DNA from: Defluviicoccus sp.
GTDB lineage: Bacteria > Pseudomonadota > Alphaproteobacteria > MPNO01
Direction: 5' to 3'
Assembly (NCBI GenBank): GCA_028820945.1
Contig: JAPPHW010000269.1
Location: 1 to 6,443 of the forward strand
DNA: 6,443 bases
Positions 423-4,986 of this stretch are shown one piece after another (positions within the stretch are counted from its first letter, which is position 1; each line of letters starts with the position of its first letter). A model generated the notes under the pieces. That model made no database searches. It had not been told where the DNA came from and saw only the letters and a program-made list of their open reading frames with translations. The position numbers and the translations under genes were made by a program.

Positions 423-432
423 CAGGCGCGCA

Positions 433-475
433 GTCCCTCGATACGGCGCTGGCGCGCCTACTCGGGATGAGGGAG
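433..475. repeat. REP-like palindromic repeat, copy 1
   Basis: This copy runs from GTCCCTCGATACGGCGCT (433-450) to CTACTCGGGATGAGGGA (459-475). It aligns with the reverse complement of 491-528 over about 35 bases with one indel and several mismatches. The two copies therefore face each other, like a bacterial interspersed mosaic element. Their position just past the M20 stop suits a bidirectional terminator or mRNA-stabilising hairpin. The first 18 bases recur exactly, inverted, at 3540-3557. Confidence 0.6.
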
Positions 476-490
476 TCGTTTGAACTTCTC

Positions 491-529
491 CTCACCCTGA
501 GTAGCCGCGTAGCGGCGTATCGAAGGGCG
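491..529. repeat. REP-like palindromic repeat, copy 2 (inverted relative to copy 1)
   Basis: The core is CTCACCCTGAGTAGCCGC, then GTAGCGGCGTATCGAAGGG, with a tight internal hairpin GCCGC-GTA-GCGGC. Its right half (511-527) resembles the half-site downstream of the intact amidohydrolase at 3540-3557 in the same orientation. It sits about 12 bases from the stop codon of the amidohydrolase fragment. I assign it to a REP/BIME-type family from its palindromic, inter-operonic nature; a genome search for many copies would settle it. Confidence 0.55.
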
Positions 530-539
530 GACTTCCCAA

Positions 540-889
540 TCAATCCGGCCGGTAGGCGGTAATCGCTTCGGTGGTCTTGTCGGTGTTGCGGGGCGCGGGC
601 GCCGCCATGTCCTGAACCACCGGACGGCCCCAGCCCGGCGTGCCCACAAGGTGGCCGTCGCGGACGACGATCTTGCCGCGCACCAGCGTGTGGACCACGC
701 GCCCCGTGGTCTCGAATCCGTGCCAGGGCGTCATGTGGCTGCGGGAATGGAGAGCGTCGCGGGAAATGCGCCCCTCCGCGCCGAGATCGACGATGGCGAT
801 GTCGGCGTCCGAGCCGGGCGCGATACTCGCACTCCCAGATGCTGTTCGACTCCTTCTCTTCCGGCAGATGCGGCGCGGGCGTCGTTGCG
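540..889 (-). pseudogene. Decayed 3' fragment of a dihydroorotase/allantoinase-family amidohydrolase
   Basis: This is a partial second copy of the intact gene at 3571-4986. Block A, 542-824, aligns without gaps to 3573-3855 (283 bp, about 11 mismatches). It encodes the same C-terminal tail from the SDADIAIVDLGAEG segment to YRPD, then stops with TGA instead of TAA. Block B, 825-877, aligns to 3996-4048 and encodes HLPEEKESNSIWECE (HLPEEKTSNSIWECE in the intact gene), but in another reading frame, because 140 bp between the blocks is missing. Block C, 872-889, matches 4366-4383 over 18 identical bases, implying a second internal deletion of roughly 320 bp. A weaker match at 892-908 to 4576-4591 could be a fourth block. 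No metal-binding residue is left in a continuous frame, so no functional enzyme is expected. Of the changed codons in blocks A and B, about ten are synonymous and three change the residue, so the source was a working gene until recently. Confidence 0.9.
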
Positions 890-970
890 CGCTCCAGAAC
901 ATGCGATACCGTCCCCGTGCTTACGCCGGTCGCGGCAGCGACCGTAGAGCTTACGCGCCAGTCCTCGACT

Positions 971-1612
971 CTACCCGTAGCCTCGTTCGGAGAGCCACCG
1001 GCGCGTGATGCTCGAATAGGGAGTTGTGCGCGAGGCAAAGTGCGCACGCAGTTCTTCCGATTCAGCCGTCATCTCGGTGGGCTCGTCGGGAATGGCTGCG
1101 GAGATAAGATGAAGCCACTGGAGTCTCTTCCGCAGATGATGCCATTCATTGAGACGCAGGTCGTCGATGGTATTTTGCGCCTTGCGGCGGCGTACGGGAC
1201 TTAGGCCTTCCTTCGGAAGTATTTCACCCGTCAGGATGTCGAAGGTGAAGAAATGTTCGGGGCGCGCTCCCCCGGACCTTGCACACGGATCCACATAGCC
1301 CCAAGGAGGCCATTTCTCCCCCTTGGCATGGTTACAGTCGTGACAGGCAAACAACCAGTTCGACCAGGAATAGACGAGGTCCGGGTATCGGGACTTGGGA
1401 CGAAAATGGTCCACTTCTCCCCGGCATGTCTCCTCGCAATACCCACAAAGGTCGTGAAAGACATCGGCAAGGTCGTCCGAGAAGTCGCGCCATCTGGAAT
1501 CGCTCGGCTTGTTGCCCTCGCCGGAACCGTAGTACCGGATCCAACGGGGTGTGTATCGAGCCCGGACTCTCTTCAACCCATCGGGCTCGGGGCCACGCTC
1601 TACCCAATGCAT
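971..1612 (-). CDS. ptuB: Septu-type HNH nuclease, PtuB-like (TIGR02646-type)
   Basis: This is the predicted DNA-cutting effector of a two-gene anti-phage system. From the ATG at 1612 it is 213 residues. An in-frame ATG at 1636 would add eight. I prefer 1612 because the protein then opens MHWVERGPEPDGL, like PtuB relatives (M-x-x-I/V-x-R-x-P-x-P-x-x-L), and a GGAG (1622-1625) lies nine bases upstream. The ATG at 1636 has a purine run directly abutting it. Counting from 1612, CGYC at 56-59 and CHDC at 90-93 form a likely Zn knuckle. VDHFRPKS at 67-74 holds the catalytic Asp-His, and the YPDLVYSWSNW and CNHAKG segments complete the betabeta-alpha-metal fold. The C-terminus (SSITRRWLSERGYG) looks intact. 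The ATPase gene ends 56 bases upstream, so both genes are probably on one mRNA. Base composition is less GC-rich than the flanking genes, consistent with acquisition. A related alternative is the nuclease of a retron-Septu system, but no reverse transcriptase is in the window. Confidence 0.85.
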   Translation of the reverse strand: MHWVERGPEPDGLKRVRARYTPRWIRYYGSGEGNKPSDSRWRDFSDDLADVFHDLCGYCEETCRGEVDHFRPKSRYPDLVYSWSNWLFACHDCNHAKGEKWPPWGYVDPCARSGGARPEHFFTFDILTGEILPKEGLSPVRRRKAQNTIDDLRLNEWHHLRKRLQWLHLISAAIPDEPTEMTAESEELRAHFASRTTPYSSITRRWLSERGYG

Positions 1613-1668
1613 GCTTCGCGACTCCGCCTCGACCATTCCCTGATTTCAGAGCCGGACGAGGCCTCGCA

Positions 1669-2985
1669 CTACCCGGCGGAGCGCTTGTTCCTTGCTCGCT
1701 TTAGTTCTTGGGCGAACTGCTCCACTTGGGTGGACATGGGACCGCGGAAAAGCTCGCTCCCCACCGCCCTGCGAAGCGCTTCCAGTTCTCTGGATTCGGC
1801 AGGTGTCAACGTTTCCTTGTGACGCAACTCCTCAAGGCGGGTGACATGCTCCGCAGTTTCAACGTCCGTGGGAGTGGGCACATCCATGAAGTTCCGCAGA
1901 ATCTCGTCTGCGCTCCACCCCACGATGTCCGATTCGTTCCTAGACACGGATATCCTTCCATCTTGGCCCCGTCTAAGCAACTGTACTTGGCCCGACTCGA
2001 GCCCCGCGAGCATCAGGGGAGAGTGGGTAGAGCAGAAAATCTGCAGCTTGGGGAGGTGCCGGATCAGTGTTGGAATGATGCGTCGCTGCCAAGATGGATG
2101 GAGATGAGCATCGATCTCGTCGATCAAGAGAACACCGGGCTTCTGTTCGAGGTCCGCAGAATACTCGTAGTACTCGCCGTATCCGATCATCAGGTGCGCG
2201 ACAGTCTGGATGAGCGATTGCGTTCCCTGGCTCAACACATCCAGTGGAAGGGTGCCAGCAGGTGTGGTAATCCGGGGGAAGAGTCCTCCCTCGTCTTCGC
2301 CTACTCCCGCAAAACTCACTGAATATCCTTCGGTAATCTCCGAAACCATCGAAATGATCTTGTCGATCACGTTTCTGACTTCCGGTCGATCCTGCCGATA
2401 GGCGGTGTAGTCGATGTCGATAATTTTTTGGACTATTTCCGTGTCGTCGACCCACGACGACGAATAGGCTAAGGCTAAGTCACCGCGCCGTTTTAATTCC
2501 GGATGTTCCTTACTCCTCATCTCCCGCGTGGCGTTGCGGAGTTCTTCGAAACCGTATTCTCTCAGCATCTTTGGACGTGCACGGGCAAGCATATTTGCTA
2601 ACTTTTCCGTGCGCGCTTCGACATCCTCCTTCGCAGAGGGTCCGGATGCACGAAAATCTGTCGCGGATCGCTGTGCGGGAACGAAACTGGTATGGCCAAT
2701 GACTTCGAAAATCGCTATGAACGATTCAGGGTCGCTTGGCAAGTATCCGCCAGCGGACTTCACCTGTGTTCCCGCGGAGTAGCGGAGCTTCCACTCTGGT
2801 CGGTCTGAACGATACAGCTTGTCAGGGGCTGTAAAGGGATAGACCAGTAGTTCCGCAAGCATCAGTAGCACCGAACTCTTGCCTGAATTGTTTGGCCCAG
2901 TGAAGACGTTCACCTGACGGTCAAACTCGAACTCGATCTCTTCGAACGGGCCGAAATCGGTCAAGTACAGGCTGGTTATCGGCAT
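1669..2985 (-). CDS. ptuA: Septu-type AAA ATPase, PtuA-like
   Basis: This is the ATPase partner of the HNH nuclease, of the SMC/ABC-like AAA class (AAA_15/AAA_21, as in OLD and RecF), without a TOPRIM domain. From the ATG at 2985 it has 438 residues. The longer frame to 3081 is rejected because the family begins right at MPITSLYLTDFGPF, and GGAGAC (2991-2996) is well placed upstream. Motifs: Walker A GPNNSGKSS at 30-38; ABC-type signature LSQGTQSL at 251-258; Walker B GVLLIDEIDAHLHP at 284-297; H-loop CSTHSP at 318-323; then GWSADEILRNFMDVPTPTD near 356-374, a tail seen in many HNH-paired ATPases. A helical, charged insertion (about 105-225) fits the coiled-coil part between the ABC half-motifs. 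In characterised Septu systems PtuA assembles with PtuB, and ATP restrains nuclease activity until infection; that role is inferred here. Codon use is visibly less G/C-biased than in the flanking catabolic genes. Confidence 0.87.
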   Translation of the reverse strand: MPITSLYLTDFGPFEEIEFEFDRQVNVFTGPNNSGKSSVLLMLAELLVYPFTAPDKLYRSDRPEWKLRYSAGTQVKSAGGYLPSDPESFIAIFEVIGHTSFVPAQRSATDFRASGPSAKEDVEARTEKLANMLARARPKMLREYGFEELRNATREMRSKEHPELKRRGDLALAYSSSWVDDTEIVQKIIDIDYTAYRQDRPEVRNVIDKIISMVSEITEGYSVSFAGVGEDEGGLFPRITTPAGTLPLDVLSQGTQSLIQTVAHLMIGYGEYYEYSADLEQKPGVLLIDEIDAHLHPSWQRRIIPTLIRHLPKLQIFCSTHSPLMLAGLESGQVQLLRRGQDGRISVSRNESDIVGWSADEILRNFMDVPTPTDVETAEHVTRLEELRHKETLTPAESRELEALRRAVGSELFRGPMSTQVEQFAQELKRARNKRSAG

Positions 2986-3539
2986 CGTAGGTCTCCGGGC
3001 GAGCACCGGGATCGGCCGTAATCGGTCGCCCGCGCAGTGCGCATATCCATGACTGCTATGGATTCCACTTGAGTTGTCCACATACCCACTCTCGTATCAC
3101 GAGCTTCGACACCACCGCGCACCGCTCTCCCGACCACGGCCTCCGCGAACGCGAACGCCACCGCCCGACCCACAACCTCGACGGGCCCAGCGGTGGCAGC
3201 GTCGGTTTGACCGCTCCAGACGACGCTTTACAAAGGAGTGTAGCACGGCACGAGCGAGATTGACCTGCCCATGGCGACCGGTTCGGTTCGAACGTTTCAG
3301 GTGAAACAAAGGTCAGCTTTGTTGATCTATTCAGTCTCTCAAGAACGCCTCGTAAGTGGCAAAAGACGGGTCCGCGCGCAGTAATGTTTCGCGTGGCGGT
3401 CCGATTCGCGTCCCCGGGGAGACGGGAGTCGCCGGATCCGGTCGCCACGCGGCGGGAAGGGGGCGCGGGCCGGTTTCCTGTTCGCTGTACAGTTTGCGAC
3501 GAATAGCGGAGAGCGCCCACCTGTCAGGTTATCCATATG
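2986..3539. other. Gene-free region upstream of the ptuA-like gene
   Basis: I find no convincing gene, tRNA or reverse transcriptase in these 554 bases; the frames here read as arginine-rich, low-complexity peptides. The ATPase ribosome binding site lies at the left edge (GGAGAC, minus strand, 2991-2996). Between 3286 and 3323 three palindromes cluster: GTTCGAAC (3286-3293), GTTTCA-GG-TGAAAC (3294-3307) and AACAAAG-GTCAG-CTTTGTT (3305-3323). Two more symmetrical sites are CGCGTGGCG/CGCCACGCG (3390-3398 and 3443-3451) and ACCTG-T-CAGGT (3519-3529). The promoter of the Septu-like pair must lie here or be supplied from further right, but no good -35/-10 pair is evident. A TACACT on the minus strand (3237-3242) lacks a matching -35. 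Confidence 0.5.
3286..3323. promoter_or_regulatory. Cluster of short palindromes, possible operator or small hairpin
   Basis: Three perfect inverted repeats adjoin or overlap within 38 bases: GTTCGAAC, GTTTCA-GG-TGAAAC and AACAAAG-GTCAG-CTTTGTT. The last two share bases 3305-3307, so as RNA they would be alternative hairpins. They lie about 300 bases upstream of the ATPase start in an A/T-richer patch. An operator for a regulator of the defence genes is possible, as is a small structured leader. No cognate regulator gene is visible. Confidence 0.3.
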
Positions 3540-3557
3540 AGCGCCGTATCGAGGGAC
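3540..3557. repeat. REP-like half-site downstream of the intact amidohydrolase
   Basis: AGCGCCGTATCGAGGGAC here is the exact reverse complement of 433-450. It is also close, in the same orientation, to the right half of the repeat at 511-529. It ends 13 bases from the stop codon of the intact amidohydrolase. The fragment copy has its half-site at almost the same distance, so this repeat half belongs to the duplicated segment. The opposite half of the palindrome is missing on the island side, which places a recombination junction close to 3540. Confidence 0.65.
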
Positions 3558-3570
3558 GGCCCCGATCCAC

Positions 3571-4986
3571 TTAATCCGGCCGGTAGGCGACGATCGCTTC
3601 CGTGGTCTTGTCGGTGTTGCGGGGCGCGGGCGCCGCCATGTCCTGAACCACCGGACGGCCCCAGCCCGGCGTGCCCACCAGAATGCCGTCGCGGACGACG
3701 ATCTTGCCCCGCACCAGCGTGTGGACCACGCGCCCCGTGGTCTCGAATCCGTGCCACGGCGTCATGTGGCTGCGGGAATGGAGAGCGTCGCGGGAAATCC
3801 GCCCCTCCGCGCCGAGATCGACGATGGCGATGTCGGCGTCCGAGCCGGGCGCGATCAGACCCTTCCGCGGGTAGCAGCCCCAGGCGCGCGCCGGCGCCGC
3901 CGCCGACCATTCGACATACTGGTTGAGCGTCAGCCGCCCCTCGGCCACCTGGGTCAGCATGATCGGCATCTGGGTCTCGACTCCGGGAAAGCCGCATTCG
4001 CACTCCCAGATGCTGTTCGACGTCTTTTCCTCCGGCAGGTGCGGCGCGTGGTCGGTGGCGATCATGTCGATCGTGCCGTCATGGAGCGCCGCCCACAGCG
4101 CCTCGGCGTGGTGCTTCTCGCGGATCGGCGGGTTGACGCGGAGCTGCCCGCCGAGCGCGTCCATGTCGTCGACCGAGAAGATCAAATATTGCGGGCAGGT
4201 CTCGACCGTCACGTCGACGCCGCGCGACTTGGCGCGACGCACGAGGTCGAGCCCGTCGGCCGACGATTTGTGTGCGATATGGAGCCGTGCCCCGGTCCAT
4301 TCGGCGAACGCGGTGGCGCGGCCGACCGCCTCGACGGCGCAGATCTCCGGGCGGGCGGCGAGGTGGGCGCGGGCGTCGTTGCGTCCGGCCTCCCTCATCT
4401 TCGTCTCGCGCCGCGCCATGATCGAAGCGTTCTCGGCATGGACGGTGCAGCGCATGCCGAGCCTCGCCAGGATCTCGAACCCCTCCAGCATCGCGCCGTC
4501 CGACGGCGCCGGCAGGTCGCCGAAGGTGTTTCCCATGAAGCACTTGAAGCCGCTGACCCCGGCCCGCGTCAGGTCCTCCAGAACGTCGATATTGTTCTCG
4601 TCGAGGAGTCCGTAGATGCCGTAATCGACATGCGCCTGCCGCTTCGCCCGCGCCTGCTTGTCGCGCAGCGCCTCCAGCGAGCCCGTCGGCGGGTGGGTGT
4701 TGGGCATCTCGAAGACGCTGGTGGTTCCGCCGCAGGCCGCCGCCGCGGTGCCGGTCTCCCAGTTCTCCTTGTAGTCGTAGCCCGGCTCGCGGAAATGGAC
4801 GTGGCTGTCCACCGCGCCGGGGAGGACGTGGAGTCCGCTCGCGTCGACGGTTTCGCGCGCCGGCGGCGACATCTCGCCCGCCGCGATGCCGACGATCCGT
4901 TCGCCGTCGATCGCGATGTCCGCCTCGATCGTGGCGGACGGCGAGACCACCGAACCGCCCTTGATCAGGAGATCGACCGTTTTCAT
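3571..4986 (-). CDS. Dihydroorotase/allantoinase-family cyclic amidohydrolase
   Basis: A 471-residue metal-dependent TIM-barrel amidohydrolase that opens cyclic amides (hydantoin, dihydroorotate or allantoin type rings). The N-terminal beta-sandwich (1-55) leads into DSHVHFREPG, with metal ligands His62 and His64. Further on are ETGTAAAACGGTTSVFEMPNT; GFKCFMG with Lys148, the expected carbamylated bridging lysine; TVHAEN with His183; LHIAHKSS with His239; and ATDHAPH with Asp312, the expected catalytic base. The barrel is complete and the length normal for the family. The final 60 residues are the part duplicated at 540-824. The ATG at 4986 has a strong GGAGG (4993-4997) six bases away, whose first G is the last base of the upstream SDR stop codon (TAGGAGG). 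The two genes thus form an operon with likely translational coupling. Automatic pipelines would probably say dihydroorotase, but the catabolic neighbours make a housekeeping pyrimidine role less likely. Substrate is not determined. Confidence 0.9.
   Translation of the reverse strand: MKTVDLLIKGGSVVSPSATIEADIAIDGERIVGIAAGEMSPPARETVDASGLHVLPGAVDSHVHFREPGYDYKENWETGTAAAACGGTTSVFEMPNTHPPTGSLEALRDKQARAKRQAHVDYGIYGLLDENNIDVLEDLTRAGVSGFKCFMGNTFGDLPAPSDGAMLEGFEILARLGMRCTVHAENASIMARRETKMREAGRNDARAHLAARPEICAVEAVGRATAFAEWTGARLHIAHKSSADGLDLVRRAKSRGVDVTVETCPQYLIFSVDDMDALGGQLRVNPPIREKHHAEALWAALHDGTIDMIATDHAPHLPEEKTSNSIWECECGFPGVETQMPIMLTQVAEGRLTLNQYVEWSAAAPARAWGCYPRKGLIAPGSDADIAIVDLGAEGRISRDALHSRSHMTPWHGFETTGRVVHTLVRGKIVVRDGILVGTPGWGRPVVQDMAAPAPRNTDKTTEAIVAYRPD

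Follow-up and report, generated by a model that had tools for sequence, protein, structure and literature searches.

The 6,443-nucleotide stretch of DNA analysed here (hereafter, the window) belongs to Defluviicoccus sp. (contig JAPPHW010000269.1) and carries a ptuA-like and a ptuB-like gene, both on the minus strand. These two genes, referred to in the following as the cassette, very probably constitute an anti-phage operon of the Septu (PtuA-PtuB) type, one that stands alone and belongs to a divergent clade; it is located on foreign DNA that was inserted, in a Defluviicoccus-like alphaproteobacterium, at the 3' end of a gene for an amidohydrolase. The pair is a divergent clade of Septu, given that no profile scores high, and not a new system; stand-alone Septu is its best label because no reverse transcriptase was found in the reading frames scanned and because the N-terminal extension of the retron ATPases is absent.

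Assignment of the cassette proteins

A preliminary description of the sequence had proposed a Septu-type pair, a view that both profile and fold comparisons uphold. The best PADLOC model of the ATPase is PtuA1 (PDLC00278, expect value (E) 4.4e-42, 142.9 bits), with residues 1-407 of 438 aligned to model positions 1-410 of 436, and that of the HNH protein is PtuB1 (E 1.5e-25), both values being far above chance; TIGR02646 also exceeds its cut-off on the HNH protein (64.1 versus 52.15 bits). The predicted folds match the solved PtuA and PtuB chains of Septu and of type I-A retrons far above other families. The ATPase matches 151 PADLOC families in all; PtuA1 models take 23 of the 25 ranks listed, and the remaining two fall to the retron I-A ATPase (rank 6, 116.3 bits) and AriA (rank 23), a ranking that does not place the protein in a non-defence family, as the preliminary description had allowed for. 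By sequence, the closest solved structure to the ATPase is Septu PtuA 8ee4 (E 5.5e-19). The Septu PtuAB of Escherichia coli (8ee4, 8eea and 8sux) likewise consists of two genes, for an ATPase and an HNH nuclease, and is matched from residue 1 in PtuA and over nearly the whole length of PtuB, but differs in sequence (about 20% identity in structure alignments) and in the length of the ATPase (465 versus 438 amino acids here). The ABC/SMC-like ATPase head is also common to the AriA and GajA ATPases of PARIS and Gabija, respectively.

The motifs read in the ATPase by the preliminary description are all present, namely Walker A (GPNNSGKSS, residues 30-38), Walker B (LLIDEIDAHLHP, with D289/E290) and the H-loop (STHSP, with H321). 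K36, D289, E290 and H321 are invariant in an alignment of 43 sequences, picked among the 120 listed of 1173 matches, in which the start methionine is common to all members and every member matches PtuA1 models; identity to the PtuA of the window is 53% or more in each of the 120 homologue clusters listed. Pfam (E up to 0.001) finds the AAA_21, AAA_15 and SMC-type ATPase families in the protein and, as had been claimed, no TOPRIM family.

In the HNH protein, the longest frame spans 971-1636 on the minus strand, and a Met-His pair at its residues 9-10 is invariant in all of 40 aligned sequences (picked among the 120 listed of 419 matches), so that ptuB most likely starts at 1612; a longer N-terminus is, however, predicted in 6 of 39 HNH relatives. 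With the start at 1612, ptuB follows ptuA on the same strand after a gap of 56 bases, the spacing originally given. The Cys-x2-Cys / DH / Cys-x2-Cys arrangement was also found as described (C64/C67, D76/H77, C98/C101, in the numbering of the longest frame): C64/C67, H77, N93 and C98/C101 are invariant and D76 is nearly so among the 40 sequences, all of which match PtuB1 models. Judged by motif and conservation, the putative catalytic residues of both cassette proteins are present.

Septu or retron

Several observations weigh against a Septu assignment. No profile score is high (the best PADLOC PtuA score is 143 bits over 438 amino acids), identity to the solved members is about 20% in structure alignments, and the retron-Ec78 equivalog models NF041760 and NF041761, for PtuA and PtuB, give low scores too, below their cut-offs (119.1 of 500 and 56.8 of 150 bits, respectively). 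The HNH protein matches seven sequences of the PDB, all of them retron or TIGR02646 entries, the closest being retron-Ec78 PtuB 9vh1_F (E 3.8e-10), and Septu PtuB 8eea is not among these matches at E up to 1. Retron chains score slightly above Septu chains in both fold comparisons (retron Ec78 versus Septu, 27.9 versus 26.8 for PtuA and 19.7 versus 18.1 for PtuB), a reverse transcriptase may lie outside the 6443-base window, and a promoter scan of the stretch upstream of ptuA (2986-3539) gave a signal not above that of shuffles.

The PDB matches and fold scores, together with the fact that TIGR02646 is named for retron systems, could be taken to mean that the cassette represents the effector portion of a type I-A retron, whose reverse transcriptase and msr-msd were lost or lie beyond the window. 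This is improbable. The PtuA chains of the retron I-A effectors (Ec78/Eco7, Ec83) carry an extra 44-63 N-terminal residues and match only from residue 61-64 onwards (45 in 9n69, 9n6b and 9n6c), whereas the window ATPase is devoid of this extension and both it and the Septu PtuA chains begin at residue 1 in the fold alignment. PADLOC, moreover, places PtuA1 over ATPase_I-A by 27 bits and PtuB1 over HNH_I-A by 21 bits. The retron effectors are also accompanied by a reverse transcriptase and by msDNA, of which nothing was seen here: no reverse-transcriptase domain is found in the 25 scanned of 47 listed frames, and Rfam gives no match. PtuA architecture and profile ranking led to the rejection of a retron effector as the primary assignment, despite the fold and PDB-sequence rankings leaning slightly the other way.

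Relatives of the cassette

Relatives of the HNH protein accompanied by PtuA-like ATPases, on which the preliminary description had made its proposal depend, were found. Among the 120 PtuA homologues listed, 29 have a longest contig of exactly the same size as that of a member of the 120 PtuB homologues listed (a count with no chance control), which points to PtuA and PtuB homologues sharing a contig, adjacency not being implied. A PtuA 97% identical to that of the window (P0001) is encoded at full length on a 4.79-Mb contig. The one close relative whose DNA was retrieved, L090, has the ATPase and HNH frames side by side, on the same strand and in the same order, as a lone pair (1492-3561) on a 4.3-kb locus, flanked by NifU-like and D-serine-dehydratase-like genes; its ATPase frame, 48% identical to the window ATPase, is interrupted by one internal in-frame TGA stop, and the HNH frame that follows is open.

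Close relatives of the ATPase were also sought in whole genomes: none was found in 27 genomes of the order of G001 (E <= 1e-60) and, at E <= 1e-50, there was one in 385 genomes of its class (L090, 48%), none in 398 of its phylum, none in 369 of the class of G409 (the genome of L033) and one in 11 of the order of G330, which is the genome of L090 again. In the three large draws at most four candidates were scored per genome and no known-positive genome was included, so that empty answers weigh little. The six genomes of L001-L005 and L022 gave weak ATPase matches only (E <= 0.001; best E 3.9e-20, 34% over residues 240-408), and those of L012 and L033 none at E <= 1e-20.

A phage-borne or plasmid-borne cassette was also considered and rejected. 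The PtuA sequence is without a relative in IMG/VR, alignment searches of which returned 24 ATPases, all of them distant (25-48% identity, in most cases over part of the length), and four HNH proteins that are distant as well (27-33%); the seven records from GenBank phages and the 122 from plasmids are all below 60%, with at most 35% among the 20 plasmid rows listed.

Insertion of the cassette

The features of the window are collected in table 1. As the preliminary description stated, the cassette is of lower G + C content (GC) than both flanks, ptuA and ptuB having a GC of 0.550 and 0.586, respectively, versus 0.67-0.72 in the flanking genes; at third codon positions the values are 0.633 and 0.664 versus 0.900-0.929. 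This foreign composition and the existence of empty sites support horizontal gain of the cassette.

Table 1. Coordinates of the cassette genes and of the surrounding features in the window.
Feature	Position	Strand	Remarks
ptuA-like gene	1669..2985	-	ABC/SMC-type AAA ATPase, 438 amino acids, without N-terminal retron extension, without TOPRIM
ptuB-like gene	971..1612	-	HNH nuclease, 213 amino acids from conserved Met-His start; longest frame from 1636
Stretch upstream of ptuA, without recognised gene	2986..3539		promoter presumed
Amidohydrolase gene, second copy of 3' part, partly deleted	536..889	-	pieces 536-824, 827-877, 872-889; left of cassette
Intact allantoinase/hydantoinase-like amidohydrolase gene	3571..4986	-	right flank of cassette; NCBIfam
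Dispersed palindromic repeat copy	423..535		between M20 gene and left amidohydrolase fragment
Truncated copy of dispersed palindromic repeat	3540..3560		right border of inserted DNA

The same neighbours occur without the cassette in five Defluviicoccus metagenome-assembled genomes, out of six loci compared. In these five empty loci the spacing between the match ends of the M20 and amidohydrolase genes ranges from an overlap of 11 bases to a gap of about 320 bases, leaving no room for the cassette, versus about 3150 bases in the window (the L004 locus holds the last 128 bases of the M20 gene only); in the sixth locus, L005, the M20 match was not found. The best relatives of the amidohydrolase protein in the five genomes (L001-L004 and L022) are 93-97% identical to it.

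The preliminary description had placed the cassette inside a catabolic gene cluster. A metabolic neighbour is indeed there, but the cluster is disturbed in a way that had been missed, with two copies of the 3' region of the amidohydrolase gene, one on either side (536-889 and 3567-4383), so that the cassette sits between the intact gene and a partial second copy of its 3' end. The left copy repeats, in direct orientation, 3567-3855 (96%), 3998-4048 (90%) and 4366-4383 (100%), and lacks two internal segments, the second of these deletions coinciding with a six-base match. In a comparison of 281 bases, identity is 96.1% between the two copies and 94.7% between either copy and L004; for this reason the duplication seems to postdate slightly the split from L004, or else to derive from a close relative. 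Decay of the left copy alone is not supported, both copies being equally far from L004 and the 11 sites at which they differ including, on both sides, states unlike those of all relatives.

The empty site of L001 is similar to the window from 3540 onwards, a border that falls inside the truncated copy of the palindromic repeat, and 3540-3560 forms an inverted-repeat pair with 430-450 (95%). Matches to this dispersed repeat number 50, 43, 15, 49 and 46 in five Defluviicoccus genomes and 0 in a sixth, more distant one (at most 40 candidates scored per genome). The inserted stretch thus delimited covers about 890-3539, and the present layout would result if a carrier containing part of the amidohydrolase gene had recombined here.

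Within the stretch between ptuA and the right border, a hidden RNA or gene was sought and none was found: Pfam gave nothing above cut-off on the frames there, Rfam no match at E up to 1 and the plasmid search no match, besides the promoter scan mentioned above. Between the gene fragment and ptuB, a possible remnant of a LacI-like helix-turn-helix (889-942, minus strand; E 0.027, 14.7 bits versus a cut-off of 27) is merely suggestive.

Proposed function and alternatives

In the proposed mode of action, PtuA would assemble, with ATP bound, into an oligomer that has PtuB attached and restrains it; a signal of infection would set PtuB free, allowing its HNH centre to cleave nucleic acid under the control of the ATPase, and the ensuing abortive infection would halt phage production at the expense of growth of the infected cell. 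As described in PMC13096335, the Septu of Ec-B88 protects against phages, its immunity requires Walker and H-N-H residues, and infection leads to cleavage of tRNA-Tyr in its variable loop; PMC11555353 describes loss of tRNA-Tyr with the PtuAB of retron-Eco7 and cites the Septu of E. coli ATCC 25922 as acting on nicked DNA. The motif residues of a studied Septu are also in the window pair (K36 and D289/E290; H77 and N93 of the longest frame) and, by motif, are presumably equivalent. The window pair may protect against phages, by cleavage of a nucleic acid such as tRNA or DNA.

It is very improbable that the ATPase and nuclease serve another role, such as the exclusion of plasmids or mobile elements instead of phages: the target and trigger of the clade are not established and the ATPase head is common to SMC, Rad50 and AriA, but the solved PtuA-PtuB pairs that match are titled Septu or retron complexes, and a studied Septu does protect against phages (PMC13096335). 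Least probable of all is that a defence island has left a remnant here that is decaying or silent, kept by chance and without present function, as might be supposed from the adjoining gene fragment with its deletions and from the in-frame stop in the ATPase of L090, since both open reading frames of the window are full length, as is the 97% identical PtuA on the 4.79-Mb contig.

Significance

The cassette itself is ordinary, and the manner of its insertion is a little unusual. A more specific proposal, unlikely as a whole, is that the clade is a large Septu group to which no current profile or structure is close, that it has its own nucleic-acid target (e.g. another tRNA), and that it entered here by homologous recombination of a carrier already holding the amidohydrolase piece and the host repeat, with no integrase or transposase. 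For the mechanism of Septu nothing is changed by this locus alone. The Defluviicoccus group gains a Septu locus whose empty sites are clear, and a populous Septu clade, about 20% identical to the solved members, is indicated; because its borders are marked by the duplicated gene end and the truncated host repeat, the locus illustrates legibly how a defence operon can enter a chromosome with no integrase in sight.
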